NCBI RefSeq assembly: GCF_001955695.1
Contig: NZ_CP019236.1
Coordinates: 186,001 to 250,000 of the forward strand
DNA: 64,000 nucleotides
Reading direction: 5' to 3'
Source: Rhodoferax koreense
Lineage (GTDB): Bacteria; Pseudomonadota; Gammaproteobacteria; Burkholderiales; Burkholderiaceae_C
The position numbers and the translations under genes were made by a program. Below the pieces are notes generated by a model, which ran no database searches, was not told the DNA's origin, and saw only the letters and a list, made by a program, of their open reading frames with translations. This document shows positions 33,168 to 56,795 of the stretch, in pieces (the stretch's first letter is position 1; each line of letters begins with the position of its first letter).

Positions 33168-33989
33168 ATGGCCAAAGAAAAAACAATCTACGTCTGCAAC
33201 GAGTGCGGCGGCACCACGCCCAAGTGGCTGGGCAAGTGCCCGCACTGCAATGCCTGGAACACACTCGTCGAGTCGGTGGCCGAAAGCGCCGCGCCCGCGC
33301 GCAACCGCTTTGCCGCGCTGGCCAAGACGGCGGCCGTGGTGGCGCTGGCCGATATCGAAGCCAGCGAGGTCGAACGCACGCCCACCGGCATGGACGAGCT
33401 CGACCGCGTGCTCGGCGGCGGCATCGTCGAAGGCGGCGTGGTGCTGATCGGCGGCGATCCGGGCATCGGCAAGTCGACGCTGCTGCTGCAGGCGCTCGAC
33501 GCGCTGCAGCGCGCCGGCCAGAAGACGCTGTACGTCACGGGCGAAGAGAGCGGCGCGCAGGTGGCGCTGCGCTCGCGCCGGCTCGGCATCGAGGGCAGTC
33601 GGGTGCAGGTGCTGGCCGAGATCCAGCTCGAGAAAATCCTGGCCACGCTCGACGCGCACCAGCCGAACATCGCCGTCATCGACTCGATCCAGACGGTCTA
33701 TTCCGAGCAATTGACCTCGGCGCCGGGCTCCGTGGCCCAGGTGCGCGAATGCGCGGCCCACCTCACGCGCGCCGCCAAGGCCAGTGGCGTGGCCATCGTG
33801 CTGGTCGGCCACGTGACGAAGGAGGGCGCGCTCGCCGGGCCGCGCGTGCTGGAACACATGGTCGATACCGTGCTGTATTTCGAGGGCGACACCCACAGCA
33901 GCTTTCGCCTGGTGCGGGCCATCAAGAACCGCTTCGGCGCGGTCAACGAGATCCAATGGGGTGTGGGATCACTACTATTGATGACCTGA
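33168..33989 (+). pseudogene. radA: radA (sms), 5' part, truncated by island insertion
   Basis: The frame starts MAKEKTIYVCNECGGT with the zinc finger (CNECG and CPHCNAW), then a RecA-like core with Walker A GGDPGIGKSTLL, TGEESGAQVALR, VIDSIQTVYSEQL and the RadA-specific KNRFG motif. Normal RadA is about 455 residues; here similarity stops after KNRFGAVNEI at about 33953, and 12 foreign residues run to a TGA at 33989. The C-terminal Lon-like domain is missing from the window. RadA is a DnaB-like helicase for recombination and transformation, so the product is probably impaired. The rest of the gene should lie at the far end of the island. Confidence 0.92.
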
Positions 33990-34045
33990 GCCAGTCAAGA
34001 TGGGATGATGACTTAATAGTAAGACTACTACTAATCTCTACTATT
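33973..34045. repeat. short TACTATT repeats at the island end
   Basis: TACTATT occurs at 33973-33979 and 34039-34045, and inverted as AATAGTA at 34015-34021, all within 92 bp of the radA junction. TGTGGGATC at 33962 starts like some Tn7-type termini. Clustered short repeats at an element end are typical of transposase or integrase binding sites. Confidence 0.4.
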
Positions 34046-34378
34046 CTCAGGGGTTAGCAATGCTATCAACGCGTCGTGGGGCAGTGGCAGTATGAGAGCT
34101 CCATCTGTGTCTTGCTTGTCCTGCTTAGCTCGCCGTTGGATGCCTCGAACGCGTGCTTGACGGTTAGTGTCTGCGTTGCGCGAAGCCTCGTTCTCTTCAG
34201 CCTTTCCCCATAATAAGCAGCGAGTTGGGTATTCCGTTCCATTTCACTCACTAGGTTCAGCGTGCAGAAAAATCGAACTTCCCTAGAGAAAAATATAAAA
34301 AATTTTGGACCGAGTTCATTTTGGCAACTTTTCCCTAGCCCTTGCGAAAGATACCCAGCTGATACTACGCCCGACATC
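33990..34378. other. non-coding island end
   Basis: 389 bp between the truncated radA frame and the first passenger gene. It holds the TACTATT repeats and probably the promoter of the gene at 34379. A 104-codon minus-strand frame (34066-34380) has no recognisable features and is not called. Confidence 0.5.
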
Positions 34379-35035
34379 ATGGACGGTACTTTAAAAAAAT
34401 TTAACTACAAACTAAAAAGGGAGCAGGTTGTGGGTGATGCAAAACGCCGCAAGGCAGAGATCGAGAAATTAAAAAATCGCGTACAAGCTTGGCGAAATGA
34501 TCTAAAGGGTGATTCTAAAGTCGTGGCAGAGGCAGCAATCTATGCATTTGAAAATATCGTAATTCCTCGAAAAATGTTTGCTGGTTGTTATCACCTTGCG
34601 TTTTTTCTTCGCGAATATCTTGCGAGAGAAAAAGGCATCGGTGTTCAGATGATCGTAGGATGGATCACAGACGAGAGTTGGGCGGGGGCTACTTCTCATG
34701 CTTGGATAGAGCACGAGGGGAAAAAAACAGATATCTCGCTCTGGCTGACCGAGCGACCTGAAATGCAGCTTCGAGGCAGCGTACTAATCAATGAATTTGA
34801 ATTTCTCAAGGGCTTAGTAACACACGTTTACCATAAAGACTTTCCTGAATCAGCAAAGCCTTTTATGCAGACTATCTCTGAAAATTCCGATTTGAAGAGT
34901 GTTATTGAGCAGAAGGCCGCTGAACATCTTCAGATTCAGAGATTTTCTGAAGAACCTGCTGGAGCGGACGATTATTTCCGAGGCGCACCTCCGTCAATGA
35001 ACTATGAGGCCCTCTTAAAGGGCATGGTTAGCTAA
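34379..35035 (+). CDS. uncharacterised protein with transglutaminase-like Cys-His-Asp pattern
   Basis: The 218-residue protein comes from AT-rich DNA unlike the backbone. It has a basic, Lys-rich N-terminal helix region (residues 1-45) that may be coiled, and then a central segment with GCYHLAFFLREYL (Cys about 70), a strand MIVGWITDES, and TSHAWIEHEGKKTDISLW (His about 107, Asp about 117). The order Cys, His, Asp with this spacing is that of transglutaminase-like cysteine proteases. The C-terminal 70 residues are polar and unassigned. No signal peptide or membrane segment is seen. The ATG at 34379 was chosen; a GTG at 34262 is possible. It stands alone, 438 bp ahead of the three-gene cassette, and its function is unknown. 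Confidence 0.7.
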   Translation: MDGTLKKFNYKLKREQVVGDAKRRKAEIEKLKNRVQAWRNDLKGDSKVVAEAAIYAFENIVIPRKMFAGCYHLAFFLREYLAREKGIGVQMIVGWITDESWAGATSHAWIEHEGKKTDISLWLTERPEMQLRGSVLINEFEFLKGLVTHVYHKDFPESAKPFMQTISENSDLKSVIEQKAAEHLQIQRFSEEPAGADDYFRGAPPSMNYEALLKGMVS

Positions 35036-35473
35036 CAATAAAAATAATCTGCGCCACTGTATCGCAAATAAATTATTATTAGCTCCCATTTTAGTTTTCT
35101 CTATTGGAATTGCTATATCTCGACATGAACGGATGCAACCGTGAGAGTTTCACGATTACCAGGAGATTCTGCCTCAATTCAATAAACGACTTGGCGCACT
35201 TGGCGAGTTCAGCGAAGGCTCAAAATTTTTTATGCTCAAAGCGCGATCGACCCATTTCATAATTGTTGTGAGCGCGGACGTCGTTCCGATCACCACGAAC
35301 CGGTGACGATATGGTCGCCCAGTAGGCAGCAGATTTCAGCTCCTGTAGCAATGCCTACCGCATCAACTCAGCACGACTTGCAGCACGCAGCCATGTAAAT
35401 GAACACTCAAAAATCCGCATGTTTTGAGTTACAACATCACAAAGTTCTCGGCGCCCTGTAACATTTGCCAAAA
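35036..35473. other. intergenic region before the three-gene cassette
   Basis: 438 bp of mixed composition with no gene I can support on either strand. It probably holds the terminator of the preceding gene and the promoter of the cassette. No clear -35/-10 pair or dyad stands out. Confidence 0.5.
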
Positions 35474-36478
35474 ATGGGGGGTACTTTGGCAGAAAACGAA
35501 CATACGGCGCATCAAGCCGAGCTTTTGGCAAGCGAGCTCTTTTCGGAATTTTTCTGGTCGAAGCTTGGACCTACAAACCACGACTGGCCATGTGAAGACA
35601 AAGAACGTCATCAAGTTGCCACTCACCCCTGTGATGTCGTGTACTACTACGACGAGCCCTATGCGGCTCGACAGACGTACGTGCACTGTGATCTTAAAAG
35701 CTATGCCAAGGGAACAATCACAGCGGCGGCAGTGAAAGCGGCTGTTGAGAGTTTGGCAAAACAGGTGGCATGCGCTGAGCGAAGCGAAGAGTGGCGCAAG
35801 CTGCACACTCACGACAACGTCACCTTTTCAGTTAGCGGCCTACTTTTCGTCTACAACCACGACGGTGAATATGAGGCCGACTTCCAGAAAAATTTGATGC
35901 ATATCGCACCGGAAAGTCTTCAACTACCGCGCGGTAGCAAGCTTTTCGTTCTTGGTCCGAAGGAAATTTTTTGGCTTGACAACATCCGCGCCGATATTCA
36001 GCAGATGCGTGGAAAAAGCAACCCTGAGGTGCCTGCGCCTGAGTTCTGTTTCTTTTTTCATCCTCAACTGATGCGGCGCGCAAATTTGCAAGTGAAGAAG
36101 GCAAAAGCAGCAACGCTTGAGACACTGACGTCTCCGATCATCATTTTGGAGCACCGCGACCCTCGTCGTTCGCACCAGCGTGGGGTAATCGTCTTCTATT
36201 CGAGGCCAGGTGACACCGTAGACGAGTTTATGTATCTCATCGACACCATGCGCAAGTACGAACTTCTCGACGAAAACACGTCCGTGAAGGTCAAAACGCT
36301 TGGCGCCTCACCTATTTCGTCTCCCACGTTTCAGAAGGCGCAGCTTCAATACATTGAGGGGCTTACCGGCGCAGGCGTGGACACCGATCTTGGTGAGTAC
36401 GTTAAAGCGATCCGTTATGAACCGATGAGGGAGACGCGTAGCGTGTACTCCAACATTGACCTGGGGACGTGGTCATGA
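35474..36478 (+). CDS. cassette gene A: unknown protein with PD-(D/E)XK-like nuclease signature
   Basis: The 334-residue protein is not one I recognise. An N-terminal helix with Glu (HQAELLASELFSEFFW, about residues 11-28) is followed by HPCDVVYYY (Asp near 54) and, about 22 residues on, HCDLKSYAKG (Asp-x-Lys near 75-77). Glu helix, Asp, then D-x-K is the order of PD-(D/E)XK nuclease cores. The remainder (SGLLFVYNHDGEYEADF, GPKEIFWLDNIRADIQ, IIILEHRD) looks like an alpha/beta domain. The start is the ATG at 35474; a TTG at 35486 behind GGGGGGT is possible. Its TGA overlaps the start of gene B by 4 nt. Role as a nuclease effector is inference. Confidence 0.75.
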   Translation: MGGTLAENEHTAHQAELLASELFSEFFWSKLGPTNHDWPCEDKERHQVATHPCDVVYYYDEPYAARQTYVHCDLKSYAKGTITAAAVKAAVESLAKQVACAERSEEWRKLHTHDNVTFSVSGLLFVYNHDGEYEADFQKNLMHIAPESLQLPRGSKLFVLGPKEIFWLDNIRADIQQMRGKSNPEVPAPEFCFFFHPQLMRRANLQVKKAKAATLETLTSPIIILEHRDPRRSHQRGVIVFYSRPGDTVDEFMYLIDTMRKYELLDENTSVKVKTLGASPISSPTFQKAQLQYIEGLTGAGVDTDLGEYVKAIRYEPMRETRSVYSNIDLGTWS

Positions 36479-37617
36479 GCGACTTTCTTGACCATCTAAG
36501 TGCGAACGACAACGACATCTACGATCTGTTGATTTCCGGCAGGCAGAAGATCACGGAAAACGTTCTCAGGGAGCTTGCCCGAGATCGGGGAATTTTCTGT
36601 TCGCCACAGGACTCTCGAGAGGATTTGGCCGACTACCTCTCGATTTTGCCTCATGCATTTCAAGACGTGGCGAGCATCGTGCACAAGCGCGAGCCTGGTG
36701 GCCGTAAGGAGAAGATGACGTCGATCCGGCTAAACGTCGTTGTCCCTCCGGCGGATCTTCGGGCCGCGGTGGAGGAATACATTGGAGGAGCGGCCAGAAC
36801 GGAGCGTGTTACTCACCGGCCTGCAAGCAATGAAGGCTTTATCGTTAATGTGAAGTATGAGGAATTCAATCATTCGCGCGCTCGTCTTCTTCAACGCGAG
36901 CGACAAGAGGCCGATATTGAGTTTTTCGTTGTAGATGGACAGACGGTCGTTCGGATGCCCGCCACCGAGAAAGCAAAGCGGATCGTCGAGGCCTTAAAAG
37001 ACAACGTTGAACGACGACGAAAAGAATCGATTCAAGAAGAGGTGATCGAGCTGGGGGGACTCAGCTCGGTGGCATTGCGGTCCAAGTTCTTTACGCGACT
37101 GATTTCAACGTTGGATGGTTTTAAGTTGAAAAACGTGATGAATCTGCGCGTGTCGTCTAACCTCTCGGAACAGGGTGAAGATGATGAGGCACTGGATCTT
37201 GAGGATGTTGAAGAAAGCGAAGCACGTGCTGAAATGTTCGCGGTTGTCCATAGCATGGCACTGTCGGGGCAGAATCTGGTGCAATCACAGGAATACAAAG
37301 ATTTAACTGCACGGGGCTTCTACATCACTTCTATCTCGTGGCGTTCAGAGCAGGATGCAAATCCTCCTGACATAGTTCAGTTTGAGGCTGGCTTTCAAGA
37401 CCGAAAACTGGGGACTGGCTTCAAGTACAACGTGCAGGGCGCTTTCCGCGCACATAAAGGCGCTCATCGTAAGACGATCGCTCCAGTGGGCGACACTGAG
37501 AAGGCCAAGTTGCTTGGTTTGATTGAAACGACCGCGCGCAAGGTGCTAGTTGAGCTAATTGCAGAAGATGCTGAGCTTTCGCAAGGTAGCGATGGCGAAC
37601 AGGGAGAAAAGCCTTGA
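36475..37617 (+). CDS. cassette gene B: uncharacterised protein
   Basis: The 380-residue soluble protein is of a family I do not recognise. The N-terminal 70 residues (DIYDLLISGRQKITENVLRELARDRGIF, REDLADYLSILPHAF) look like a compact helical domain. A beta-rich middle (SIRLNVVVPPADLRAAVEEYI, IEFFVVDGQTVVRMPATEKA), a charged helix (EALKDNVERRRKESIQEEV) and an acidic stretch near residue 235 (EDDEALDLEDVEESEARAE) follow. The C-terminal part contains GFYITSISWRSE and QFEAGFQDRKLGTGFKYNV. It is coupled to A by ATGA and to C by TTGA. A sensor, DNA-binding or adaptor role is conceivable but not shown. Confidence 0.75.
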   Translation: MSDFLDHLSANDNDIYDLLISGRQKITENVLRELARDRGIFCSPQDSREDLADYLSILPHAFQDVASIVHKREPGGRKEKMTSIRLNVVVPPADLRAAVEEYIGGAARTERVTHRPASNEGFIVNVKYEEFNHSRARLLQRERQEADIEFFVVDGQTVVRMPATEKAKRIVEALKDNVERRRKESIQEEVIELGGLSSVALRSKFFTRLISTLDGFKLKNVMNLRVSSNLSEQGEDDEALDLEDVEESEARAEMFAVVHSMALSGQNLVQSQEYKDLTARGFYITSISWRSEQDANPPDIVQFEAGFQDRKLGTGFKYNVQGAFRAHKGAHRKTIAPVGDTEKAKLLGLIETTARKVLVELIAEDAELSQGSDGEQGEKP

Positions 37618-38285
37618 AACGATATCGTTGGCTGCAGGCTGACTGGCCTATCTCGATGCGTGCGCTCGGCAAGCGTCTGAAGGCGCGGCCGTTTGGCTCC
37701 GACGTTTCTCATGGCTTCGTGATTGATCGGGTACGCGATGACTTGTTAGAGGGACGATACATCGAGCGCATCGAGTACACAGACACCGTGACTGATCCCT
37801 TCGGCGTCGAGTTGGCTTTTGAGCGAGTTGAATTCCGTCAGAGTTCATTTCGCGCGACTCCATCGGGCCCAGGGTTGGAGCTGCGAGACCCACCACGCAG
37901 CGTTCAGTCGCTGCTTAATCGGCTTTCAGAGGCTTCTGACTTTGAGGTGGCCATCACGGCTCAGGCAGTGGACGTACTTGCATGGAGCGCGAAGTTCCAA
38001 AGCCTGGCCGAACTTACATCAGTGGTCGACTCGCTGCAGGTCAATTCCTTGGAGCTCGAACCTGGTATTCGCGCAAAGATTGTGATCAAAGGAGATCGTG
38101 ACGTCCGATCCTCCTGCACGACATTGACTGGTCCGCGAAAATTTTCCATGGAGAAGATTCAGCTTCGTTTTACCAAGCCAAGCATCGGTACGATCATCTT
38201 CGGAAACACCGCCTCGGCATCATTGGGCGTAGATGATCCAGAGGAGCGAATTCTCGAAGCGCTCCGAGATTCACTGCCCCGCTGA
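37614..38285 (+). CDS. cassette gene C: uncharacterised protein
   Basis: The 223-residue soluble protein starts at a TTG that overlaps the stop of gene B (TTGA), with AGGGAGAAA as ribosome site. It begins MKRYRWLQADWPISMRALGKRL; the middle has alternating strands (VIDRVRDDLLEGRYIERIEYTDTVTDPFG, VELAFERVEFRQSSF) and the end LGVDDPEERILEALRDSLPR. No motif or membrane segment is recognised. The strict coupling A-B-C implies a single functional unit and probably a complex. Confidence 0.72.
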   Translation: MKRYRWLQADWPISMRALGKRLKARPFGSDVSHGFVIDRVRDDLLEGRYIERIEYTDTVTDPFGVELAFERVEFRQSSFRATPSGPGLELRDPPRSVQSLLNRLSEASDFEVAITAQAVDVLAWSAKFQSLAELTSVVDSLQVNSLELEPGIRAKIVIKGDRDVRSSCTTLTGPRKFSMEKIQLRFTKPSIGTIIFGNTASASLGVDDPEERILEALRDSLPR

Positions 38286-38411
38286 GTTGGTATTTCTAAC
38301 ATGATGACGTGGTGATATTTACCAATTGGGGGTTTTGTTGACCACCGCTTTTTCTCACTCAGAGGCTAGGTTTTGAAGGTCCGGGCATGTGCGTTGCGGC
38401 CGGCCTGCAGA

Positions 38412-41400
38412 TTACTTTGTCCAAAACAATACCCGCCTGGAGGCGTTGGCCCTAGCTTCTCTTGGACGCCGCATCAGCAGATAGGCAGCCGGAATCACGA
38501 ACATCGACAGCAGGGGTGCAGTGATCATCCCGCCGACCATCGGCGCTGCGATGCGCTGCATTACTTCGGAGCCGGTACCGGTGCCCCACATGATCGGAAA
38601 CAGACCCGCAAGAATGACCGCGACCGTCATGGCTTTGGGCCGCACCCGCAGTACCGCCCCTTCCCGTATGGCATCCAGCAAGTCAGCTTCCGTGGTTTTG
38701 CCTTGGTCCAGCCGTTCATGCCAAGCATTCTTCAGGTACAGCAGCATGATCACGCCGAACTCGGCGGACACCCCGGCCAGCGCAATGAAGCCCACCGCGC
38801 CGGCGATCGACAGGTTGTAGTTCAGAAGGTAGAGCAGCCAGATGCCCCCAATCAGCGCAAACGGCAGCGCTGCCATGATCAGCACTGCTTCGCCAAAACT
38901 GGCAAACGTCAGGTACAGCAGTACGAAGATGATGAGCAGCGTGAATGGCACTACCACCTTGAGCTTGGCCGTGGCGCGCTCCAGGTACTCAAACTGGCCC
39001 GACCACGAGACGGAGTAGCCGGGAGGTAGCTTGACCTGCTGCGCCACAGCCTTTTGCATGTCCTGCACCGCGGAGCGCAGGTCGCGCCCGCGGATGTCCA
39101 CGTAGACCCAGCCGGACAGGCGGGCGTTCTCGCTACGCAGCATGGGCGGGCCATCGGTAATGCGGATATCGGCCACATCCGACAGAACCAGACGCTGGCC
39201 GCGTTCCGTGACGATGGGTAGTACGCGCAGCTTTTCCAGCGAATCCCGGATTTCGCGGGGATAGCGCAGGTTGATGGGGAAGCGTTGCAGGCCCTCGACG
39301 GTCTCGCCGATGTTCTCGCCACCGACCGCCGACGAGATCACCGACTGGACATCGGCAATGTTCAGGCCGAACCGCGCAGCTTCCTCCCGACGGATATTGA
39401 TGTCCACATAGCGGCCACCGGTCAAGCGCTCGGCCAAGGCGCTGCTCACACCCGGCACGTCTTTTACTGCACGCTCAATCTCTCCGGCGATACGGTCGAT
39501 CTCGGCCAGATCGGTCCCCGCCACCTTGACGCCCACCGGGCTCTTGATACCGGTGGCCAGCATGTCGATGCGGTTGCGGATTGGTGGTACCCAGATGTTG
39601 GCCAATCCCGGTAATTTAACGATGCGATCCAGCTCCTCCACCAGCTTGTCCTGCGTCATGCCGGGGCGCCACTGCTCCTTGGGCTTGAACTGGATCGTGG
39701 TCTCGAACATCTCCATGGGCGCGGAGTCGGTTGCGGTCTCGGCCCGTCCGGCTTTGCCGTAGACGCTGGCCACTTCGGGCACGGTCTTGATCAGGCGGTC
39801 AGTCTGCTGCAACAACTCGCTGGCCTTGCCGGTGGACAGCCCCGGCAGAGCGGAGGGCATATAGAGCAGATCGCCTTCGTCCAGACGCGGCATGAACTCG
39901 CCGCCGATGTGCTGCAGGGGCCACAGGCTCAGTACCAGCAGCACCGCTGCGACCACCAAGGTCATCTTGGGTGCTCGCAGCACCGCATTGAGCAGCGGGC
40001 GGTACACCGCGATCAGGAGGCGATTCAGCGGGTTGTTCTTTTCTTCGGGGATGCGACCGCGAATGAGGTAGCCCATCAGCACCGGGATCAGGGTCACTGA
40101 CAAGCCTGCTGCAGCGGCCATCGAATAGGTCTTGGTGAATGCCAGCGGTGAGAACAGGCGGCCTTCCTGCGCCTCCAGGGTGAACACCGGAATGAACGAC
40201 AGGGTGATGATCAGCAGCGAGAAGAACAGAGCCGGCCCCACCTCCGCGGCTGAATCGCCAATCACCCGCCAGCGGGCTTCTCCGTGCAGCGTTTCCCCTG
40301 GATGCGCGTGACCCCATTGCTCCAAGTGCTTGTGCGCGTTCTCGATCATCACCACCGCCGCATCCACCATGGCCCCGATGGCGATGGCAATCCCTCCTAA
40401 AGACATGATGTTGGCGTTGACGCCTTGGTAGTGCATGACGATGAATGCCGCCAGAATGCCCAGTGGCAGCGAGACGATGGCCACTAAAGCGGAGCGCAGG
40501 TGGAACAGGAAGAGGAAACACACCACCGCGACAACGATGAACTCTTCCAGCAACTTGTAGGTCAGGTTGTTCACCGCACGTTCGATCAAGTTGGAGCGGT
40601 CGTAGACGGGCACGATCTCCACGCACTGGGGCAAGCTGGACTGCAAGGTTTTGAGTTTTTCCTTCACCGCAGTGATAGTCTCCAGCGCGTTCTTGCCAGA
40701 GCGCATCACGATCACGCCACCTGCAGCCTCGCCTTCACCGTCCAGTTCGCCGATGCCACGGCGCATTTCCGGGCCAAGCTGGATGCGCGCTACGTCGCCC
40801 AGACGTACCGACACACCCGCAGCGGTGGTCATCAAGGGCACCTTGCGGAAGTCGTCCAGGCCTTGCAAATAGCCCGATGCACGTACCATGTACTCGGCCT
40901 CGCCCAGCTCCAGCACCGAGCCGCCGGTTTCCTGGTTGGCTTTCTGTATGGCTTCGACCACCTTGGTGTGTGGAATGCCATAGGCCACCAGCTTGTTTGG
41001 GTCGAGCACGATTTGGTACTGGCGGACCATGCCACCGATTGAAGCGACCTCGGCTACGTTGGGGATGGTTTTCAGCTCAAACTTGAGGAACCAGTCTTGC
41101 AGGGCACGCAACTGCGAAGCGTCCTGGGTGCCGCTGCGGTCCACCAGCGCGTACTGATAAATCCAGCCCACTCCGGTAGCGTCTGGCCCGATGGACGCCT
41201 TGGCCGCGGCCGGCAGGCGTGACTGCACCTGGTTCAGGTACTCCAGAACCCGTGAACGGGCCCAGTAGAGATCGGTTCCGTCCTCGAACAGCACGTAGAC
41301 AAAGCTATCGCCAAAGAACGAATAGCCGCGCACCGTCTTGGCCCCCGGCACCGACAACATGGTGGTGGTCAGCGGGTAGGTAATCTGGTTCTCGACAATT

Positions 41401-41576
41401 CGCGGTGCCTGCCCAGGATAGGTGGTGCGGATGATGACCTGCACGTCCGAGAGATCAGGCAATGCGTCCAGCGGTGTGCGCACGACTGAATAGATCCCCC
41501 AGGCGCACAACATCACGGTTGCCAACAGGACGAGGAAGCGGTTGGCAATGGACCAGCGGATGAACTTGGCGATCAT
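38412..41576 (-). CDS. cusA: copper/silver efflux RND pump CusA
   Basis: The 1054-residue inner-membrane protein has the RND layout: helix 1 (about 12-32), two large periplasmic loops, and twelve helices in all. Conserved proton-relay acidic residues are in [16 protein letters not shown]. The Met residues that line the Cus copper path have counterparts in [29 protein letters not shown] and [16 protein letters not shown], arguing for Cu(I)/Ag(I) rather than the zinc/cobalt CzcA branch. Its ATG overlaps the cusB stop by 4 nt. It exports metal from periplasm or cytoplasm through CusB and CusC. Confidence 0.95.
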
Positions 41577-43228
41577 GGCTTGTTTCCTGTCACTTTGGCC
41601 GGCGCAGCCTGGGATTCAGGAGCCACGGAGGTGATGCGGGTGAGTTGCGGCAAGCCCTCGGCGTCCATGTAGAACTCAAAGCTGACCCTGTCGCCACGCT
41701 CCAGATTACGAGGCTTGCCGCTGGCCGGCAGCTTGAAATCCATGGTCATTGCACCCCATTTGAGTGAGGCGATCGGCGCATGCGATAACGTGATGGCATC
41801 TTTTCCGATGGCTTCGATCTTGGCTTCACCTTCGTGGCGGGGTGCCGTGTTGGCCGCATTGGGCTGGGGTGTGTCGTTCAGACGGGCTTCGATGCCTTTG
41901 AGGCTCGCTTCGGAATCGATCAGGAACTGGGATGACACCACCACGCGCTGCCCGGCTTGCAAGCCTCGCTTGATTTCAGTCTGTCCATTGCTCTCGATAC
42001 CGGTTTCCACTTCGACGGGCCGGAACTTGCCTTTGTCTTCGGCGAGCATGACCACAACACGCTTACCGGTCTGGATCACCGCTTCGGTCGGAACCAGCAG
42101 CGATTTCTCGGCCCGCATGTCCATGAACTGCATATTGACGAACATGCCGGGTACCAGCAGGCCGCCGGGGTTGGGCAGTTCCACTCGGGCTTTGAGGGTC
42201 CGGGTGGCCATGTTCACTTCGGGTACCAGGGCTTGCACTGTGCCCTGCAGGGCGGTGCCGGGTGCAGCGGCACTATTGGCCTGGACCTTGGTGCCAGGGC
42301 GGATCAACGCAACCTGGCCTTCCGGTACTTCGGCATTCGCCCAGACGGACGACAAACCGTTGATGCGGAACAGCGTTGCACCGGGCATGACGGTCATGCC
42401 TTCGCGGGCCATCAGTTCCACCACCACACCGGCGATGGGTGCGAAAAGCGTGGTCCGTGGCTGGGTCTTGCCACTGCTCTCGACCCAACGCATCTGTTCC
42501 TCGTTCATGCCGACTTGGCGCATGCGCTGGCGTGCGCCATCGACCAGGCTCGCCAGATCCGTCCCCTGCATGCGCCGCACCGAGAGAAACTCTTCCTGTG
42601 CGGCAATCCAGTCCGGCACGTAGAGCTCGGCCAAAGGCTGCCCTTTGTTGACTCGGTCGAGCGTAGCGCGCACGTGCAGACGTTCGATGTAACCCGTGGC
42701 CCGGGCTTGCACAAAGGCTTGGTCGCGCTCGTTGAATGCGATGTTGCCGACGGCGGATAGCTGGGGCGCCAGTGTGCCCTGTGTCACTTCCGCAGTACGT
42801 ACGCCCAGGTTCTGCTGGATGCGCGAACTCACTGTGACCTTGCTGCCATCTCCGTCGCTGTCGGCATAGACGGGCACCAGCATCATGTCCATGAATGGAG
42901 ACTTGGCAGGCTTGTCGAACTTGTTCCCCGGCACCATGGGGTCGTGGTAGTAGAGGATCTTCTTTCCAGTGGTGGGATCGATATCCCCCGCCTTGATACC
43001 CGCCGCGATATGTCGACGGGTTGCTTCCTCGCCTTGGGCCACACTTTGCGGTCCGGCCACAGCCACCGTCGACGCTGGTGTCGTTGCAGCAGATTCTGAA
43101 GACGCCGGCATGGCGGTCAGGTCCTTGCCACGCTGCATGCCCATGGCATAGAGGCCATAACCTACGGCCCCGAGCACACCGACACAGATCAGGCCTGCAA
43201 TGAAAGTTTTGAGTTTCGGCATGGTCAT
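41573..43228 (-). CDS. cusB: CusB periplasmic adaptor with N-terminal HMBD and C-terminal CusF-like domain
   Basis: The 551-residue protein has a membrane anchor (about residues 8-25), a heavy-metal-binding segment [31 protein letters not shown] near residue 90, and then the membrane-fusion core ([67 protein letters not shown]). The last 80 residues ([31 protein letters not shown]) repeat the CusF copper-chaperone fold, so the chaperone is fused in. The ATG at 43228 overlaps the cusC stop (ATGA); a second ATG at 43222 has better spacing to GGGAG. It delivers Cu(I) to CusA. Confidence 0.94.
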
Positions 43229-44550
43229 TTCTCCCTTGAGGTGGTCGTGGTGGCTGGGTGGTCTGCGGGCAGCAGGTATTCCAGCTGCGCCCACAGGCTG
43301 GCAGCTTCCATTTCCAAGCGAAGGCGGTCCATGCGGGTATCGATCTCCATACGCCGGGCTTCGAGCACAGCAGTAAGTGAGCCGCTGCCACCACGGTAGG
43401 CGGCCAAGGCTGCACGGGTGCGCTCGGCAGCAAGCGGGACCAGCGTGCTGTCGAAGTGGGCCACACGGTCACGGTCGCTCTGCCATTGCTGGAGCCACAT
43501 GCGGGTGTCGGCGACGTGTTCACGTGTGGCTTCCTCGCGATGGGCGCGCATCTGCTCGGCGATGGCCAGCTTGGCGGCCACTTCCCGGTCTTGCCGGTTC
43601 TTCTGGTCCCATTGCAACGGGATCGAGACGTTGAATGACACCATGTTGGAGTAGGCCGGGCCACGCTGGCTCAGCATCAGCTCCACACTCCAGTCAGAAC
43701 GTTTGTTGCTTTGCGCGATATCCACGTCTGCCTGTGCAACCTCTTCCTGCTTGAGCATCAGCGCGATCTCTGGATGGTGGGCCAATTGCGCATCCAGGCT
43801 GGTCGGTTCGAGGTGGACTTGGTTCAAGTTGGGTGGAAGTGCCAGAGCTTGGCTGGCGGGCTCTCCGATCCAGCGTGCCAGCTTGATCTTGGTGGTACTG
43901 ATCTGACGCTCGGTTTGCCGGATGCGGTCGTCCATCTGCGCCACTGCCGAGCGTGCGGCAAACACGTCGGTCTGGCTACCGCGCCCGCCCCGGTAAGCGG
44001 CATCGCTGGCTTCGATCTGCAGGCTGGCCTCGGCCCGCTGTGCGCGCAAGACATCCAGCATGCGTTCCTGGTAGTAGCGGTCCAGCCAAGCCATCGCGGT
44101 ATCCCGTCGTAGGTTGGCCAGTGCCACTACACGGCTGCTTTCGGCGGCCTCGGCTTCCCGGTTGAAGCGAGTGGAGCGGGCCTTGAGTTTGTCGCTCCGA
44201 GTGATTTCCTGCATCACGCCGATTGAGCGCATAGTCATGAAATCCCGCGTGACGCTGAAGCTATCTTCGCCATTGATGGGCAGGTTGTTGACTCCTGCCT
44301 TGAGGACCGGGTCGGGCAGTTGCCCGGCGGCGGCAGCCATCTCGCGGGACGATCGTGCTACGGCATCTTGGGCGACGAGTTGGCGCGACCGGTCTTGTGC
44401 GAGCTGCAGGGCTTGGTCGAGGCTCAATGCCTGCTGGGCCTGGGCACCCAGGCACAGCAGGGTTGAAGCCAGGATCAGTAGACAGACCGAATAAGCCCGG
44501 CGGCCGTGCCGAGGACGTGAGTGCACGCGCTGAAAGAGAACAGAAAACAT
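43225..44550 (-). CDS. cusC: CusC/CzcC-type outer-membrane efflux protein (TolC family)
   Basis: The 441-residue protein has a signal peptide (LLILASTLLCLGAQA, cleavage near residue 38), then two outer-membrane efflux protein repeats: LSLDQALQLAQDRSRQLVAQDAVARSSREMAAAAGQLPDPVLKAGVNN and a second with LAHHPEIALMLKQEEVAQADVDIAQSNKRSDWSVELMLSQR. It forms the exit channel for CusAB. It lies first of the coupled cusCBA block. The upstream in-frame extension to 44634 was rejected in favour of the signal peptide start. Confidence 0.92.
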   Translation of the reverse strand: MFSVLFQRVHSRPRHGRRAYSVCLLILASTLLCLGAQAQQALSLDQALQLAQDRSRQLVAQDAVARSSREMAAAAGQLPDPVLKAGVNNLPINGEDSFSVTRDFMTMRSIGVMQEITRSDKLKARSTRFNREAEAAESSRVVALANLRRDTAMAWLDRYYQERMLDVLRAQRAEASLQIEASDAAYRGGRGSQTDVFAARSAVAQMDDRIRQTERQISTTKIKLARWIGEPASQALALPPNLNQVHLEPTSLDAQLAHHPEIALMLKQEEVAQADVDIAQSNKRSDWSVELMLSQRGPAYSNMVSFNVSIPLQWDQKNRQDREVAAKLAIAEQMRAHREEATREHVADTRMWLQQWQSDRDRVAHFDSTLVPLAAERTRAALAAYRGGSGSLTAVLEARRMEIDTRMDRLRLEMEAASLWAQLEYLLPADHPATTTTSREK

Positions 44551-44685
44551 GGAATCTCCAGACAATGAAACGGGGGTTTCATGTCGGCCCGGCACGCCGG
44601 TGCAGGAGGGGATCCGGCAACCGCAAACGAGCACGACAAAAGCACTTCCAGCTTGAAAGCAGTCAGTGCAAGATCGTCTGGAGGA

Positions 44686-45084
44686 TCAAATTCGGAAGCA
44701 GCAGTATCGTATGGCCACGGGCGGTGCCGTGGTGCGCTTCAAGTGGGGCTGCTGCAGTGGTGCCCCCCCAAGCACTGAAGCCATATCCGGCAGTAAAAAG
44801 CTGACTGGAACCGCACTGATGTCTAGCGGCGCGGGCAGTTCGTACTTGTCTGCCGTTTGATGCCCCACCTGGCAATGTGCCTGGCACAGGTTGGGTTGGG
44901 CATCGTCCATGTTAATGGACATGGATTCGGCACAGGGCATCGTCGCCTCGGCCATAGCAGTAGCTTCTGCGATCTTTTGCTGCACACCTGGACACGCATA
45001 GCCTGCCACCGCCAGCTGCATGAACAGCAGGCTCACCAGTGCGATGAACACTGTGATGAGGCGGGATTGGCGACGGGAGGGCAT
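44686..45084 (-). CDS. small secreted Cys-containing protein ahead of cusCBA
   Basis: The 132-residue protein starts MPSRRQSRLITVFIALVSLL, a signal peptide with likely cleavage near residue 28. The mature part has Cys in YACPGVQQ, MPCAESMSINMDDAQPNLCQAHCQVGH and RYCCFRI, plus several Met and His residues. Proteins of this kind often precede copper operons in Burkholderiales and may bind metal in the periplasm, but no family is certain. It is 135 bp upstream of cusC and probably the first gene of that operon. Confidence 0.65.
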   Translation of the reverse strand: MPSRRQSRLITVFIALVSLLFMQLAVAGYACPGVQQKIAEATAMAEATMPCAESMSINMDDAQPNLCQAHCQVGHQTADKYELPAPLDISAVPVSFLLPDMASVLGGAPLQQPHLKRTTAPPVAIRYCCFRI

Positions 45085-45111
45085 GGACTTATGAGAACGG
45101 TAGTTGCACTG

Positions 45112-45134
45112 CAGATGACTGGTAACTGAACGTT
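45112..45134 (-). promoter_or_regulatory. possible copper operator upstream of cus operon
   Basis: Read on the minus strand, CGTTCAGTTACCAGTCATCTG resembles the copK operator half CATTYACTACCAGTGATGC at about 15 of 20 positions. It lies 28-50 bp upstream of the small Cys protein gene that leads cusCBA. It would be the same regulator's site if real. Confidence 0.35.
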
Positions 45135-45469
45135 TCCGATTGCTGTCGGTACAAAAAGTTCCTGTTTGATACAAGCACTATTTTGGCAGTGTGGCGATCG
45201 CAGGGGTACTAGATTTTCCACTATCCGCTGAGCTTACTTTTGCCGGTTGCCTAAATTGAGCCGTACTCAGGCTTTCAGTACCGACTGGTGCAATCGCAGC
45301 GGCATCGTTGATGCCATGACCTGCCCCAGCAGCCGAATGGGTGGACCGAACAGTAGGCATTGCCAAATGCGGCTTCCAGTGGAGTTCGGTAATGGAATCT
45401 ATGAAGCCACCCCCAGCCTGGGTATCAAACTTGTAATGTTTTGGTCAGTCAGGGCACGGTGCTCAATAT

Positions 45470-45506
45470 CTACATTTACTACCAGTGATGCAGCACTTGC
45501 GTCACT
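45470..45506 (+). promoter_or_regulatory. copper operator upstream of copK1
   Basis: ACATTTACTACCAGTGATGC (45472-45491) includes the left arm of a dyad AGTGATGC-N7-GCGTCACT (45484-45506). The same element with one change in the ACATT part is present upstream of copK2 (57134-57170). Conservation of both half-sites and spacing points to a shared CopR-type operator; the regulator assignment is inference from the copRS genes nearby. Confidence 0.7.
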
Positions 45507-45554
45507 GCTCCACACAAACTGGGGCATCACGTACTACCCAAGGAGATACCCATC

Positions 45555-45836
45555 ATGTCCATTCGCAAATCGATCATTGTCCTGGCCCTCTCTCTCCCTG
45601 CATTGTCCGCCTTCGCTCTCGATTCGAGCGGTATCGTCAAATCCACACCTTTGAAAGGTGGCGCCGTATTGCACGAGTTCAGCGATGGAAAAATGGCCAT
45701 GGAAGACAAATACGGGCGAGCCTCTCACTTGAACCACAGCACGGTCATGGAAACGGCCGATGGCAAATCCATCACTATGGTCGGTGACGAAGTTGCCCGA
45801 CTGAATCAGGCATTGCAAAAACATTACAAGAATTAA
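45555..45836 (+). CDS. copK: periplasmic copper-binding protein CopK (copy 1)
   Basis: The 93-residue protein has a signal peptide (MSIRKSIIVLALSLPALSAFA) and a 72-residue mature part VKSTPLKGGAVLHEFSDGKMAMEDKYGRASHLNHSTVMETADGKSITMVGDEVARLNQAL with the CopK pattern FxDGKMxME(D/N)K(F/Y)G and METxDGxxIxMxGxE. CopK of Cupriavidus binds Cu(I) through Met residues and Cu(II) cooperatively. Mets of DGKMAME, TVMET and ITMVG are kept. It is expressed from the operator just upstream and is the only plus-strand structural gene in this part. Confidence 0.88.
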   Translation: MSIRKSIIVLALSLPALSAFALDSSGIVKSTPLKGGAVLHEFSDGKMAMEDKYGRASHLNHSTVMETADGKSITMVGDEVARLNQALQKHYKN

Positions 45837-46064
45837 TGCGAAGTGAACAGTGTTCCTCGCTGAAACGAACCAGATCAGACTTTGGACGTGAGCGAGGACG
45901 CGGTTCTGCCGATCGCCTTGTTCTTGAATAAGTACGGAGCATAGATGACGGAAAATGCAACGTCATAGACTGTTCGGAACGCTGGGATGCCATCTCATGG
46001 AGCATCTTGGCGAGTTCGGCCTTGTCGATAGGCAAAGGGTGGGATGTCGTGATTGGCGCCATGC
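45837..46064. other. sequence left of the IS903-group insertion
   Basis: About 230 bp with no complete gene. A minus-strand frame reading SHPLPIDKAELAKMLHEMASQ continues across the IS junction if the element is removed, so a short gene may have been interrupted, but no start with ribosome site is evident. Confidence 0.4.
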
Positions 46065-46073
46065 GGTCGTACT
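46065..46073 (+). repeat. 9-bp target site duplication, left copy
   Basis: GGTCGTACT directly precedes the left terminal repeat of the IS at 46074 and recurs exactly after its right end at 47113-47121. Confidence 0.9.
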
Positions 46074-47112
46074 GGCTTTGTTGCGCAAATTGACGATCAG
46101 CCGCAATAACCCCTACCCCAGACGCACTCATGCCACGGCGACCGTGGCGGGAGTGCACAGTTGGGTGAAGCGGTTGAGCAGCGCCGCGCGCACATGCAGC
46201 TCCACGACCTGACGCGCGAAGCTGCGGGCCATCACCCGCTCGCCCAGGCGCTTGAAGCAGTGCATCTTGGTCTCCACCAGGCTACGCCGGTGGTAGCCGC
46301 TCCAGCACTTCCAGATCGTGCGGCCCAGGCGCTTGCATGCCGCTACGGCCGCGTTGCGCACTTGCGCCCCCACCCCCGCGCCCTTCCAGACTTGCGCGTT
46401 CTTGCGCGGCGGGATCACCGCCATCGCGCCCCGCTCGGCAATCGCGGCATGGCAGCCCTTGGTGTCGTAGGCGCCGTCAGCGCTCACGTTGGCCAGCGCT
46501 TCGTCCGCAGGAATCTGCTTGAGCAGCTCGGCCAGCATGGGCGCATCGCCCACAGTGTTGTCCGTCACCTCGATGGCCCGGATCTCCAGCGTCTGCTCGT
46601 CGATGCCCAGGTGAACCTTGCGCCACTGCCGCCTGTACTCGGCACCGTGCTTCTTGCGCTTCCATTCTCCTTCGCCGACGAACTTGATGCCGGTGCTATC
46701 CACCAGCAGGTTCAACGGCGCGCTGCTGGGCCGGTAGCTCAGCTGCACTTGCAGCCGGGCCTGTCGCCGACACACGGTGCTGAAGTCAGGCACCGGCCAG
46801 TCGAGTTGGGCGAGTTGCAGCAGGCTTTGCACCAGGCCCAGGCTTTGCCGCAGCGGCAGACCAAACAGGCATTTGACGCTCAGGCAGAACTGGATCGCTG
46901 CGTCCGAGAAGATCGGCTGGCAACCTCGTTTGCCGGTGGGCTCGGCCAGCCATCGCATGTCCCGATCCAGCCACACCGTCAGCGAGCCCCGCGCCTTCAG
47001 TGCAGTGTTGTAGCTCGCCCAGTTCGTCGTCTTGTACTTGCCCTGCTTCGGCTTGTCTTGCTCCATCAGCTCAGCCTACCAGCGCGGGGCGGGCGCTTGG
47101 TGCAACAAAGCC
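46074..47112 (-). mobile_element. IS5-family, IS903-group insertion sequence (1039 bp)
   Basis: Ends are GGCTTTGTTGCGCAAA (46074) and, inverted, GGCTTTGTTGCACCAA (at 47112). The terminal GGCTTTGTTG is that of the IS903 group, and the perfect 9-bp duplication GGTCGTACT on both sides is the length typical of that group. One transposase gene fills it. Intact ends, gene and duplication suggest a fairly recent, single insertion. Confidence 0.93.
46128..47066 (-). CDS. IS5-family transposase
   Basis: The 312-residue transposase is full length. It has the DDE motif as LLVDSTGIKFVG (first Asp), VSADGAYDTKGC (second Asp) and RRSLVETKMHCFKRLGERV (Glu with the downstream Lys/Arg). The N-terminal TNWASYNTALKARGSLTVWLD is characteristic of the IS903/IS1405-like branch. 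No frameshift is seen, so it should be active. Confidence 0.95.
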   Translation of the reverse strand: MEQDKPKQGKYKTTNWASYNTALKARGSLTVWLDRDMRWLAEPTGKRGCQPIFSDAAIQFCLSVKCLFGLPLRQSLGLVQSLLQLAQLDWPVPDFSTVCRRQARLQVQLSYRPSSAPLNLLVDSTGIKFVGEGEWKRKKHGAEYRRQWRKVHLGIDEQTLEIRAIEVTDNTVGDAPMLAELLKQIPADEALANVSADGAYDTKGCHAAIAERGAMAVIPPRKNAQVWKGAGVGAQVRNAAVAACKRLGRTIWKCWSGYHRRSLVETKMHCFKRLGERVMARSFARQVVELHVRAALLNRFTQLCTPATVAVA

Positions 47113-47121
47113 GGTCGTACT
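47113..47121 (+). repeat. 9-bp target site duplication, right copy
   Basis: GGTCGTACT, identical to 46065-46073, directly follows the right terminal repeat of the IS. Confidence 0.9.
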
Positions 47122-47205
47122 TGAAATGAGCTGGAACGGAATGACAGTTGACTCTCCCACAAGGACAAGGTTTAGAGTTTGAATTTCCAAAATCAAGGAG
47201 TTTCC

Positions 47206-47364
47206 ATGATCGAATTCGAAGTCAAGAACATGAGCTGCGGCCACTGTGTCGGCAACGTAACCAAAACCGTCAAACAGATCGACCCTGGTGCATTGGTTGA
47301 GGTCGACTTACCCACCAAAAAGGTCAGCGTTCAGTCCGCAGCAGATCGCACCACGTTTGCGTAG
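47206..47364 (+). pseudogene. copZ: CopZ-like HMA copper chaperone truncated by an amber codon
   Basis: The frame starts MIEFEVKNMSCGHCVGNVTKTVKQIDPGALVEVDL, a heavy-metal-associated domain with the MxCxxC copper site (residues 9-14), behind AAGGAGTTTCC. It stops at a TAG (47362-47364) after TTFA, at residue 52. The same frame continues ALTEAGYP, the normal last helix of such 65-residue domains, so a CAG or similar codon seems to have become TAG. After GYP the similarity fades. The metal site survives, but the fold lacks its last elements. Confidence 0.75.
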
Positions 47365-47418
47365 GCGCTGACAGAAGCGGGTTATCCGACAATCTGGGCA
47401 CATTTTCGGATCGCTGAC

Positions 47419-48702
47419 TCAGCGCATGTTTCCAGTGTGCCCCAGGGAGTACCGGCCGGGTTGAGGCCAGACTGTCAGTCCATGTGGCTCTTTGCCCACG
47501 TTCACCTTGTCGACCGAACCGGTGGAGGTCTGAAATCGGTACACCACGTTGTCGTAACGGCCCGATAGCCAAAGGTATTTTCCGTCTGCGCTCACATTGC
47601 CCATGTCGGGACTCCCACCGCCAGGCACCTTCCAAGTCGCCAGCACTTCGCGCTTGGCAAAGTCGACGACCGACACACTGCCTTTGCCACCTGGCTTTCC
47701 ACGAATTCGGTTGGTGCCTCGGTTGGCAACATAGAGGTGCTTGCCATCGCGACTGGGATAAAGGCCGTGTGCACCGACCCCCGTGGTGATGAACCCGACC
47801 TGTCGAAATGAATCGAAGTCAACCACGTGCAGACCGCCAGCCACCATGTCGGCAACAAAGAGGGTCTTTCCATCTGGCGAGACTCGAATATCTTGTGGCA
47901 TGCCTTGTGCCGTGCTGATCTTCAGCGTGGGGTTCTCAGGGTCAGGGATCTGCATGAATGTTTTGCCCGAATCGGTCAACAAGGCAAGCACCTGCGGGCG
48001 GTCGAAGTAAGCACTGAGTTTGAGGGTCTGTACGACCTTGCGTTTACCGATGTCGATCTTTGTGATGGCACCACCGAACTCGCAAGTGAACACCGCCTGG
48101 TCGCCCTCTGCAGAGAAGTCGGCGTGGTTGATGCCTTCGCACAGCGGGGTTTCAATTGAGAAAGCCAGCTTCATCGTGAGAGGATCCCGAAAGTCGAGCC
48201 GCTTGAAGGCTTCGGCCACCACGATGGCATAGCGGCCGTCTATCGTCCAGTAGAGGTTGTAGGGATCATCGACCGGAATTGATGTTCCGGTTTTTCCTGT
48301 GCGGGGGTTGATGGGTGTCAAGCTTCCGTCGGATCGACCTTCAGCATTATTGGCAACCCAAAGTGTCTGGAGATCCCATGAAGGCACGATGTGCTGTGGA
48401 TCCACGCCTACTTTCAACGTGTCCACTACCTTCAGCGTGGTGGGGTCAATCACTGAGACAGTGCCAGCAGAGCGGTTTGGGACATAAATTCGGTTCAGAG
48501 CGCCATTGACGGCAGGAGAGAGTCGCCCCGCAGTGGTCTCACTGTAGACGTTAGGACGATCTTTCGTCGCAGGCAAGGCTCGACTTTCAGGCACGCCTTC
48601 TTTGGTAGTTTGTGCGTAACCGGTCGCCACGGATACGGCAGAGAGTACGGAAAGAGCGACGGCTGGTAGTGCCGATGAGTTGAGGTATTTCATCGTATGC
48701 AT
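47419..48702 (-). CDS. secreted YVTN beta-propeller protein
   Basis: The 427-residue protein has a signal peptide ending near GYAQ (about residue 31) and repeated YVTN/YncE-type blades: NRIYVPNRSAGTVSVIDPTTLKVVDTLKVG, TLWVANNAEG, KTLFVADMVAGGLHVVDFDS, KHLYVANRGTNRI and GKYLWLSGRYDNVVYRF. Such propellers are periplasmic and scaffold or bind cofactors; none has a settled role in copper resistance. It is last in the minus-strand unit, 29 bp behind the creatininase-like gene. The start may be the ATG at 48702 or 48693. Confidence 0.82.
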   Translation of the reverse strand: MHTMKYLNSSALPAVALSVLSAVSVATGYAQTTKEGVPESRALPATKDRPNVYSETTAGRLSPAVNGALNRIYVPNRSAGTVSVIDPTTLKVVDTLKVGVDPQHIVPSWDLQTLWVANNAEGRSDGSLTPINPRTGKTGTSIPVDDPYNLYWTIDGRYAIVVAEAFKRLDFRDPLTMKLAFSIETPLCEGINHADFSAEGDQAVFTCEFGGAITKIDIGKRKVVQTLKLSAYFDRPQVLALLTDSGKTFMQIPDPENPTLKISTAQGMPQDIRVSPDGKTLFVADMVAGGLHVVDFDSFRQVGFITTGVGAHGLYPSRDGKHLYVANRGTNRIRGKPGGKGSVSVVDFAKREVLATWKVPGGGSPDMGNVSADGKYLWLSGRYDNVVYRFQTSTGSVDKVNVGKEPHGLTVWPQPGRYSLGHTGNMR

Positions 48703-48731
48703 GAATTTCAATGGATGATCAAGCGAATGAT

Positions 48732-49571
48732 TTAGCGTCGTCGATCGACGGCTTCCTGAATGGCCCTGACGCTCGACTCAATGATCAGCTCAGTGCCAAT
48801 TTTTCCGATCACCGCACTCGATGCCTTGGGGTCTCCTGAGATTCCGGTGACAGACTCAGGAGTCGAGAAGCCGCTAAGCTTGTCCATCCTGACAAGATTC
48901 GGATCGACGGCGAGCATCAGCGATGTGTCCGCGAGCCCAGCATGTGCCCCAATTTGAGCGCTTGTAAAACCCTTGGCACGCAACGCCTGCGAGAAGCCGT
49001 TGTCTGCTGCCCGGTAGTAGTCCGCCACGTAGTGGGCGCGGGTCTTCGAGCCAGTCCATTCGCGGTTTAAGCGGTCTGCTGTCTGTTGCAGCAGACTCTG
49101 ATAGCCGCCATGGTCCCCAACGAACACGACATCCAGAAACCCATGTTGCTTTAGGCTGCGGGCAGCGCCGGAAAGCACGGCCGTGAAGGCATCCGCTGGT
49201 ATCGAGATCGTGCCTGTGAACCTCATGTGTCCGGAATGCGAACCAATGATGCCTTCCGGCACATAAGCGACAACGGGAGCAACCAAGGTGTTACCGAGTT
49301 TTTCCGCGATCTGACCCGCCAGAACGTGCACCCTGACGTTGTGCTTGCCAAGCGCCATGTGAGGGCCGCTCTGCTCGGTGCCACCGACCGGGACAATGAC
49401 AGTGGTCGCACCGGATCGAACGGCATCCCGGGCTTCGGTCCACGTCATGTCGTCCAGGTAGACCTGGTTGGGGGCCGCATGCACCCCTGACGTCATGGCT
49501 CCGATGACCACGGTAGAGATGAGCCAGCGTCGAAACCAGGCAAAACGCCAGTGATCTTTAAGGAGCGTCAT
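48732..49571 (-). CDS. secreted creatininase-family protein
   Basis: The 279-residue protein has a signal peptide ([16 protein letters not shown], cleavage near residue 33) and a creatininase fold: [32 protein letters not shown] and [16 protein letters not shown]. In classic creatininases the first metal motif is EQHG-HLPLGTD; here the His after EQ is Ser and the Asp is replaced (KHN), so the metal site and reaction may differ. Its ATG overlaps the P-type ATPase stop (ATGA), so it is tied to copper export. Role unknown. Confidence 0.85.
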
Positions 49572-51949: not shown

Positions 51950-51969
51950 ATCGCCCTTGGAGTTGGAAA

Positions 51970-52003
51970 AGACAAAAGCGACCTGCCTTAAAGGGCAAGT
52001 CGC
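51970..52003 (-). terminator. Rho-independent terminator on the minus strand
   Basis: On the minus strand GCGACTTGCC pairs with GGCAGGTCGC (one mismatch), followed by TTTTGTCTTTT. It lies between the CusF-like gene (upstream) and the ATPase gene (downstream), so it would cut or attenuate transcription inside the copper block. Confidence 0.75.
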
Positions 52004-52057
52004 TGCCGCATTTGGAGCAGCTCGGACTACAACCCGTCCACAGCCTACGCCGATGCT

Positions 52058-52396
52058 TTACTTTGCAGGAGCGATCTCGGTCACCACGATCGCGCCACCG
52101 GCCTTTTCAGCCTTGAACTTGACCTTGTCGCCTGCCTTGACCTTGTCGAGCATGGCCGGGTCCTTCACCTGGAACACCATCGTCATACCAGGCATGTCCA
52201 GGTTCTTGATGTCGCCGTGCTTGATGGTGATCTTCTTGGCTTCCATGTCGACCTTGCGAATTTCGCCATCGACCATGTCACCTGCGGCGGCGCCTTCGGC
52301 CATCACCATTGGTGTCCCCGCGGGCGTGGCGGCAAATGCTGGGACTGCGGCAACCAGAGCTGCAGCAAGGATCATCAACGTGTTGAGCTTTTTCAT
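52058..52396 (-). CDS. cusF: CusF-like periplasmic copper chaperone
   Basis: The 112-residue protein has a signal peptide (MKKLNTLMILAAALVAAVPAFA) and a CusF OB-fold: GEIRKVDMEAKKITIKHGDIKNLDMPGMTMVFQVKD. The His of IKHGDI and Mets of LDMPGMTM match the Cu(I)/Ag(I) site (His, two Met, cation-pi aromatic; here the Trp position is less clear). It carries Cu(I) to CusB or away from the ATPase exit. A second, fused CusF copy lies at the end of CusB. Confidence 0.92.
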   Translation of the reverse strand: MKKLNTLMILAAALVAAVPAFAATPAGTPMVMAEGAAAGDMVDGEIRKVDMEAKKITIKHGDIKNLDMPGMTMVFQVKDPAMLDKVKAGDKVKFKAEKAGGAIVVTEIAPAK

Positions 52397-52494
52397 AATG
52401 ACTTGTCCTTAAAAATTGTCACTTGACGAAATTGTCAGAAGCAAAGGTGGCACCTCGTCTGCTGGTGGTAAACGCAGGTGCTGAGGTTCGCGAC

Positions 52495-52965
52495 CTACTT
52501 CTTGGAGACGTTGACCAGCCCCTTCATGCCGGCGTCGTAGTGGCCAGGCTGCAAGCAGGCGAAATCAACTTTGCCGGACTTGGTGAATTGCCAAATGATC
52601 TCCCCAGTCTTGCCCGGAGCCACGGTGACCATATTGGCGTCCGCATGTTCCATCTCAGGGTTTTTCTTCATGACCTCGTAATGGTCCTGCAAGTCTTTCT
52701 CTGTCCCCAGCACCATCTCGTGCTTGACCTTGCCGGAGTTCTTGGCGACGAACTTGATGGTCTCGCCTTGCTTCACGTCGATGAGGGATGAGTGAAACTT
52801 CATGTCGTCGGTCATGTCGACGTTCACGGTACGGGTCACTTTGGATGCGACGCCGGGTTTACCGATGGCATCATCGCCGTGGCCGCCTGCGTGGTTGCCC
52901 GAGGCCATGGCGCTCATCCCCAAAAGGATGGCTGGGACTGCGATGAGGAGGTGAATTGCTTTCAT
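52495..52965 (-). CDS. periplasmic cupredoxin-family protein
   Basis: The 156-residue protein has a signal peptide (cleavage near AMA-S, residue 22), a His-rich head (GNHAGGHGDD) and a plastocyanin/azurin-like fold: IKFVAKNSGKVKHEMVLGT (first copper His) and VDFACLQPGHYDAGMKGLVNV, with Cys, His and Met of a type 1 site. Relatives (CopI-like) occur in proteobacterial copper clusters. It probably buffers or transfers copper and may donate electrons to the multicopper oxidase next to it. Confidence 0.9.
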   Translation of the reverse strand: MKAIHLLIAVPAILLGMSAMASGNHAGGHGDDAIGKPGVASKVTRTVNVDMTDDMKFHSSLIDVKQGETIKFVAKNSGKVKHEMVLGTEKDLQDHYEVMKKNPEMEHADANMVTVAPGKTGEIIWQFTKSGKVDFACLQPGHYDAGMKGLVNVSKK

Positions 52966-53000
52966 AAAAATAACCTTTCTGTGGGTGTAAAAAAACTGAC

Positions 53001-54413: not shown

Positions 54414-54441
54414 ATGTTTTCCGTATTTGATTGAGGTCGGC

Positions 54442-55863: not shown

Positions 55864-55873
55864 GGTGATCCAG

Positions 55874-56191: not shown

Positions 56192-56312
56192 GGAATTCCT
56201 TGCAATTCATGGGACGGCGCACAGAAAGCAACCCGCAACGGGACGCTTTAAGGCGGGCAATGAAAAGGCACCTCGAACCACTCAGGCCATCAGGCCCTGT
56301 CGGTAGGGTGCG

Positions 56313-56744: not shown

Positions 56745-56795
56745 GTGGACAGGAATTCTAGCGATACGTGGGGTCAGTGCGCAAATTGCGACAGT

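Follow-up and report, generated by a model that had tools for sequence, protein, structure and literature searches.

The 64,000-nucleotide window analyzed here (Rhodoferax koreense, assembly GCF_001955695.1, contig NZ_CP019236.1, positions 186,001 to 250,000 of the forward strand) carries between positions 35474 and 38285 a cassette of three genes, here called A, B and C, which on sequence comparison is with little doubt a copy of the anti-phage system 3HP (also labeled Rst_3HP). The frames of A (35474-36478), B (36475-37617) and C (37614-38285) are all open on the plus strand and are coupled by four-nucleotide overlaps, ATGA between A and B and TTGA between B and C, as an earlier note on this DNA had described; its lengths for B (380 amino acids [aa]) and C (223 aa) stand, whereas the 334 codons that it gave A are probably too many. 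The listed homologues of A mostly measure about 327-335 aa and start with MAEN or MAET, so that gene A most likely begins at the TTG at 35486, 12 bases after the ATG at 35474, and spans 35486..36478 (330 aa). A run of G at 35476-35481 sits a few bases ahead of this TTG. No homology among A, B and C was seen by profile comparison (maximum 0.4 percent).

Assignment to 3HP and conservation of the cassette

The PADLOC models Hp1, Hp2 and Hp3 matched the adjacent genes A, B and C in that order (E values of 3.3e-54, 1.5e-36 and 3.4e-17, respectively), and in the record of a Vibrio phage matched by A and B the depositor's notes label the relatives Rst_3HP__Hp1, Hp2 and Hp3, again in the same order. 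The assignment is made through these model E values and the labels of relatives, the founding 3HP sequence lying outside the comparison. The earlier note had read the cassette as a defense system, which this match bears out, and as an undescribed one, which the match to a published system contradicts, this being one of the outcomes that the note itself had set down as refuting it. Its remark that the genes belong to no recognizable family holds for Pfam, where A, B and C and 28, 30 and 39 of their relatives gave weak, scattered matches only, and fails for PADLOC, for PHROGs (as families without known function) and for the precomputed label PF26115, all of which hold these families. PF26115 is attached to 120 of 120 listed relatives of A, and PF26115 or PF26110 to 6 of 120 listed relatives of B; neither family was returned by the Pfam search.

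Rousset et al. 2022 (PMC9122126) describe a three-gene system, without a clear predicted domain, that protects against P1. We take this system to be 3HP, and by analogy the R. koreense copy would protect its own host. The DefenseFinder paper, which cites Rousset et al. for the founding set, names Rst_3HP as one of the systems that occur mostly on prophages (PMC9090908); the mechanism of 3HP is entered as "Unknown" in one table of a 2024 survey (PMC10855318); and in another study the "3Hp operon" of Alcaligenes faecalis was deleted as a demonstration of genome editing (PMC13141931). Several genome surveys also count 3HP.

Conservation was examined by scanning GTDB species genomes with the alignment of A alone, which gave 51 loci. 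All three profiles were found in adjacent open reading frames (ORFs), in the same order and on the same strand, in 46 of these 51 loci and in 26 of 30 loci from IMG/VR that had likewise been located through A alone. Six loci run into a contig end and are truncated there, two from GTDB (L024 and L049) and four from IMG/VR (L104, L120, L125 and L132). In L052, A loses its reading frame about 0.2 kb short of the contig end, whereas in L041, a broken copy, A is split, B is short and C is present. L053, a 3.1-kb contig with a single odd ORF matching parts of A and B, was considered as an A-B fusion and not used, the start of A being missing. The record titles of the 51 loci include proteobacteria, Acidobacteriaceae, Verrucomicrobiales and Armatimonadetes. 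Of the 29 listed phage and plasmid records that matched A, five were inspected (two filamentous Pseudomonas phages, a Klebsiella P2-like phage, a Vibrio phage and an Azospirillum plasmid), and all five have the three genes. The search for co-occurring homologues that the earlier note had called for came out in its favor: by this computation, the three genes stay together whether the carrier is a chromosome, a plasmid or a phage. Because the Hp1-Hp3 matches coincide with ordered adjacency across loci, the cassette is beyond a chance arrangement. A was found in 2 of 60 genomes related to the window's own (that genome included). In a sample of 369 genomes from the class, Hp1, Hp2 and Hp3 each matched one, again the window's own, a count that shows rarity and says nothing more on co-occurrence. 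In two filamentous (Tubulavirales) phages of Pseudomonas aeruginosa of about 13 kb (L055 and L056), 3HP forms an end cargo of about a fifth of the genome.

Nuclease-type core of A, predicted fold of C and kinship with GAPS4

Structure modeling with fold comparison, together with the alignment, gives A (HP1) a predicted N-terminal core of PD-(D/E)XK type that contains an invariant D...DxK. The second domain, behind this core, resembles the same fold class and has no comparable invariant motif. In an alignment of 74 distinct sequences (made without L041, L052 and L053), D51, D70 and K72 are present without exception (74 of 74), supplying the Asp and the (D/E)xK of such nucleases; counted from 35483, the Asp51 codon lies at 35633..35635 and the D-x-K motif Asp70-Leu71-Lys72 at 35690..35698 of the plus strand. 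The acid of the first core helix varies more: 59 of the 74 sequences have Glu22, and 61 of 74 have an acid (Glu or Asp) at position 18. The order of Glu-helix, Asp and D-x-K that the earlier note had picked out is present, and its description of A as nuclease-like agrees with the predicted core and the invariant motif. From motif and model, A probably cuts DNA. Fold matches of A include defense nucleases with a related core (HamA, Can2, Shedu, Avs3 and LmuAB); acetyl-CoA carboxylase entries, which held the top Foldseek rank for A, were set aside at a template-modeling (TM) score of about 0.2 and root mean square deviations mostly of 13-19. When solved structures were searched by sequence, A had no match and the matches of B and C were at the level of chance. 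Two further matches of B were left unused for want of other support, one to a model of an archaeal tRNA-splicing endonuclease (E = 0.0024) and one, in PADLOC, to DpdC (0.029).

The comparison with GAPS4 that the earlier note had drawn proved to be the right one, A being distantly homologous to GapS4a and B to GapS4b. Against the NCBIfam models, A matched GapS4a at 6.8e-8 (32.1 bits; cut-off 270) and B matched GapS4b at 0.03 (13.2 bits; cut-off 300), so that both fall short of the curated cut-offs, and the presence of a third gene, C, departs from the two-gene operon of GAPS4. An initial profile comparison was weak (27.2 percent for A with GapS4a and 3.7 percent for B with GapS4b; alignments of 28 to 39 rows, one GapS4 locus). 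With wider alignments, taking in three and then six GapS4-type loci, the pairing of A with GapS4a reached 96.3 and then 95.8 percent and that of B with GapS4b 65.4 and then 72.6 percent, over most of both proteins, with all other pairings at 1.9 percent or less. The highest scores among 40 column-shuffled decoys were 25.0 and 20.9, versus 67.4 and 44.7 for the real pairs. On these profile computations, A and B (HP2) are remotely homologous to the GapS4a/GapS4b pair and follow each other in the same order. The GapS4a cut-off was checked on one of the six loci (L054), which passed at 347 bits; the other five (L090, L091, L136, L137 and L138) are relatives of L054 at 31-34% identity. No third gene follows the pair in any of the four GAPS4-type loci with room for one (L090, L091, L136 and L137), while L054 and L138 end too early to show it. 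On this evidence, 3HP resembles a GAPS4-type pair to which one gene has been added.

Names containing GAPS4 were found in UniRef on two of the 120 listed relatives of A, and one genome among 369 of the class matched GapS4a. GapS4b was found in 0 of 398 genomes of the phylum in a search in which the control was also silent, and nothing is concluded from it. No relatives of GapS4a were found in phage records. On three viral contigs (L136, L137 and L138), GAPS4-type pairs adjoin genes that by eye resemble those of P2-type tails, a hint that P2-like prophages may carry GAPS4 as well. In the literature retrieved on 3HP, GAPS4, Gmt and RdgC, no title or abstract opening links 3HP to GAPS4 or HP3 to RdgC.

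The third protein, C (HP3), has the predicted fold of RdgC, RexA and CENP-L. PF04381 (RdgC) was not among the Pfam matches of C or its 39 relatives, and hhalign against 28 RdgC proteins found no sequence link (maximum 1.9 percent). The third gene of phage OR621021 carries the depositor's name "RdgC-like exonuclease". Going by the modeled fold, a role of C as a clamp is a tentative proposal, with chances only slightly short of even. The earlier note's reading of B and C as sensor or regulator proteins would agree with the RdgC-like fold of C.

The Gamma-Mobile-Trio island

The cassette lies just inside a genomic island, as the earlier note had said: the end of the element was mapped at 33953/33954, and the cassette begins 1.5 kb inside it. 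The island is about 44.8 kb long and occupies 33954..64000 of the window, ending at C1:264756, about 14.8 kb past the window (positions prefixed C1 are on the contig). It interrupts radA, the 5' part of which lies at 33168..33953 on the plus strand (TIGR00416 positions 1-267) and the 3' part at C1:264754-265317 (positions 265-453). The six bases GAGATC at the left junction (33948..33953, plus strand) recur at the right junction (C1:264757) as a 6-bp direct repeat. By eye, the inner ends of the island (33948-33970 and G000:C1:264740-264762) read ATGGGGTGT in inverted orientation.

At the far end (C1:257880-264408) stand GmtX, a second RadA, GmtZ and GmtY. GmtX (231.7 bits; cut-off 40), GmtY (546.8; 340) and GmtZ (970.5; 600) all exceed their cut-offs, which identifies the element as a Gamma-Mobile-Trio (GMT) island. 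The island's radA copy, in the gmtX-gmtZ interval (G000:C1:258631-259968), scores 581 bits with the profile entered from position 18 (its start is short) and shares 83.5% identity over 194 residues with the 3' part of the interrupted radA; the island may carry it as a replacement for the gene it disrupts. The cargo at 38412-59434 is mostly copper and other metal resistance, comprising an RND pump with CusB/CusF and outer-membrane parts, a P-type ATPase, a multicopper oxidase and a two-component pair. A single ORF of 257 aa (34262-35035) separates the cassette from the island end and gave only sub-threshold matches, to Transglut_core3 (0.11) and lasso B2 (0.029). An IS66-family transposase lies in the island past the window end (L100:1836-3344).

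GAPS4 is reportedly known from a GMT island. According to PMC12039261, GMT islands carry antiphage systems. In 60 other stretches (two of them GAPS4 loci, and L002, L003 and L102 probably one place), no GMT proteins were found at E 1e-5 (best 0.023; the control, L100, matched), with flanks of at most 10 kb. Since some 34 kb separates the cassette from the GMT genes of its own island, the result is no evidence that they are absent elsewhere.

Candidate mechanisms and relation to known systems

The best explanation of the whole, which we consider rather likely, is that the cassette is a 3HP anti-phage system whose products form an ABC complex, C and B binding phage DNA and A cutting it. In such a scheme, A, B and C would assemble into one complex, and C, as a dimer or ring like RdgC, would bind double-stranded DNA together with B. 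The DNA state bound would most likely be one made during phage DNA replication, recombination or circularization, and its binding by C and B would position or activate A, which would then cut the phage DNA.

The main rival, although rather unlikely, is abortive infection, in which B and C would sense a phage protein or recombination intermediate and free A to cut host DNA or RNA, which would kill the infected cell. The target choice of A cannot be read from its sequence, and the nucleases with related cores named above occur in many defense systems, both of which leave room for killing of the host; the RdgC-like fold of C, in contrast, suggests DNA handling beside the nuclease, albeit one still compatible with host DNA as the target. 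A further reading, which we regard as improbable, is that C steers recombination, replication or the lysis-lysogeny choice as RdgC or RexA might, and that mobile elements use the cassette chiefly for their maintenance or competition (for example, against RecA-dependent events), A then being a nuclease of recombination. The predicted fold of C is that of a recombination-associated protein, and the cassette sits at the end of a recombinase-bearing island and has relatives on phages and a plasmid; however, those relatives ride in vehicles of different kinds, no GMT genes were found near the 60 other stretches (within flanks too short for the spacing seen here), and the three-gene system that we take to be 3HP, once cloned, protects a laboratory strain against P1 (PMC9122126). 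Least probable of all is a divergent GAPS4 system with an incidental third gene since, for all the collinear homology of A and B to GapS4a and GapS4b and the PF26115 and GAPS4 names among relatives of A, the NCBIfam cut-offs are far off, C is kept in all loci with room (L041 being the broken copy) and it is absent from all four GAPS4-type loci with room.

Returning to the DNA-cutting ABC complex, it might, more speculatively and with chances somewhat below even, extend to GAPS4: 3HP and GAPS4 could be one DNA-surveillance nuclease superfamily, 3HP being the version that recruited HP3, a clamp of RdgC/RexA fold that would encircle phage DNA as it replicates, recombines or circularizes and license cutting by HP1/HP2. 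If true, long-standing puzzles about RexA and RdgC would be connected to modular nuclease defense. With HP1/HP2 placed beside GapS4a/GapS4b and HP3 assigned to the RdgC/RexA fold class, every subunit acquires a role that can be tested, and a relation between two-gene and three-gene nuclease systems suggests itself; this copy, moreover, rides on a GMT island, the class of element from which GAPS4 was reportedly described.

The cassette shares the gene order Hp1-Hp2-Hp3 with the 3HP of Rousset et al., and the relative in a Klebsiella Peduoviridae (P2-like) phage lies between the portal and replication-endonuclease genes, like the published hotspot (PMC9122126), whereas the window's copy is in a GMT island and not in a P2-like prophage. 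The available part of that text does not describe HP1 as a GAPS4-like nuclease or HP3 as RdgC-fold. Compared with RdgC (PF04381; 2OWL, 2OWY), C is about 80 residues shorter and without detected sequence similarity. Its predicted fold class also takes in lambda RexA (8TWQ) and Iml3/CENP-L; RexA works with the membrane protein RexB, whereas the partners of C are a predicted nuclease and a GapS4b-like protein. GAPS4 (NF047933/NF047934; Mahata et al. 2024) has the same gene order and similar gene sizes and has two genes where the 3HP cassette has three, and three GapS4a-type proteins appear by eye to have Ser before x-Lys where A has Asp70, an uncertain correspondence because the profile alignment is shifted by two residues. 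With GMT islands, finally, the window's element shares GmtX, GmtY and GmtZ at its far end, and it differs from them in its largely copper and metal cargo and in the radA copy between gmtX and gmtZ.
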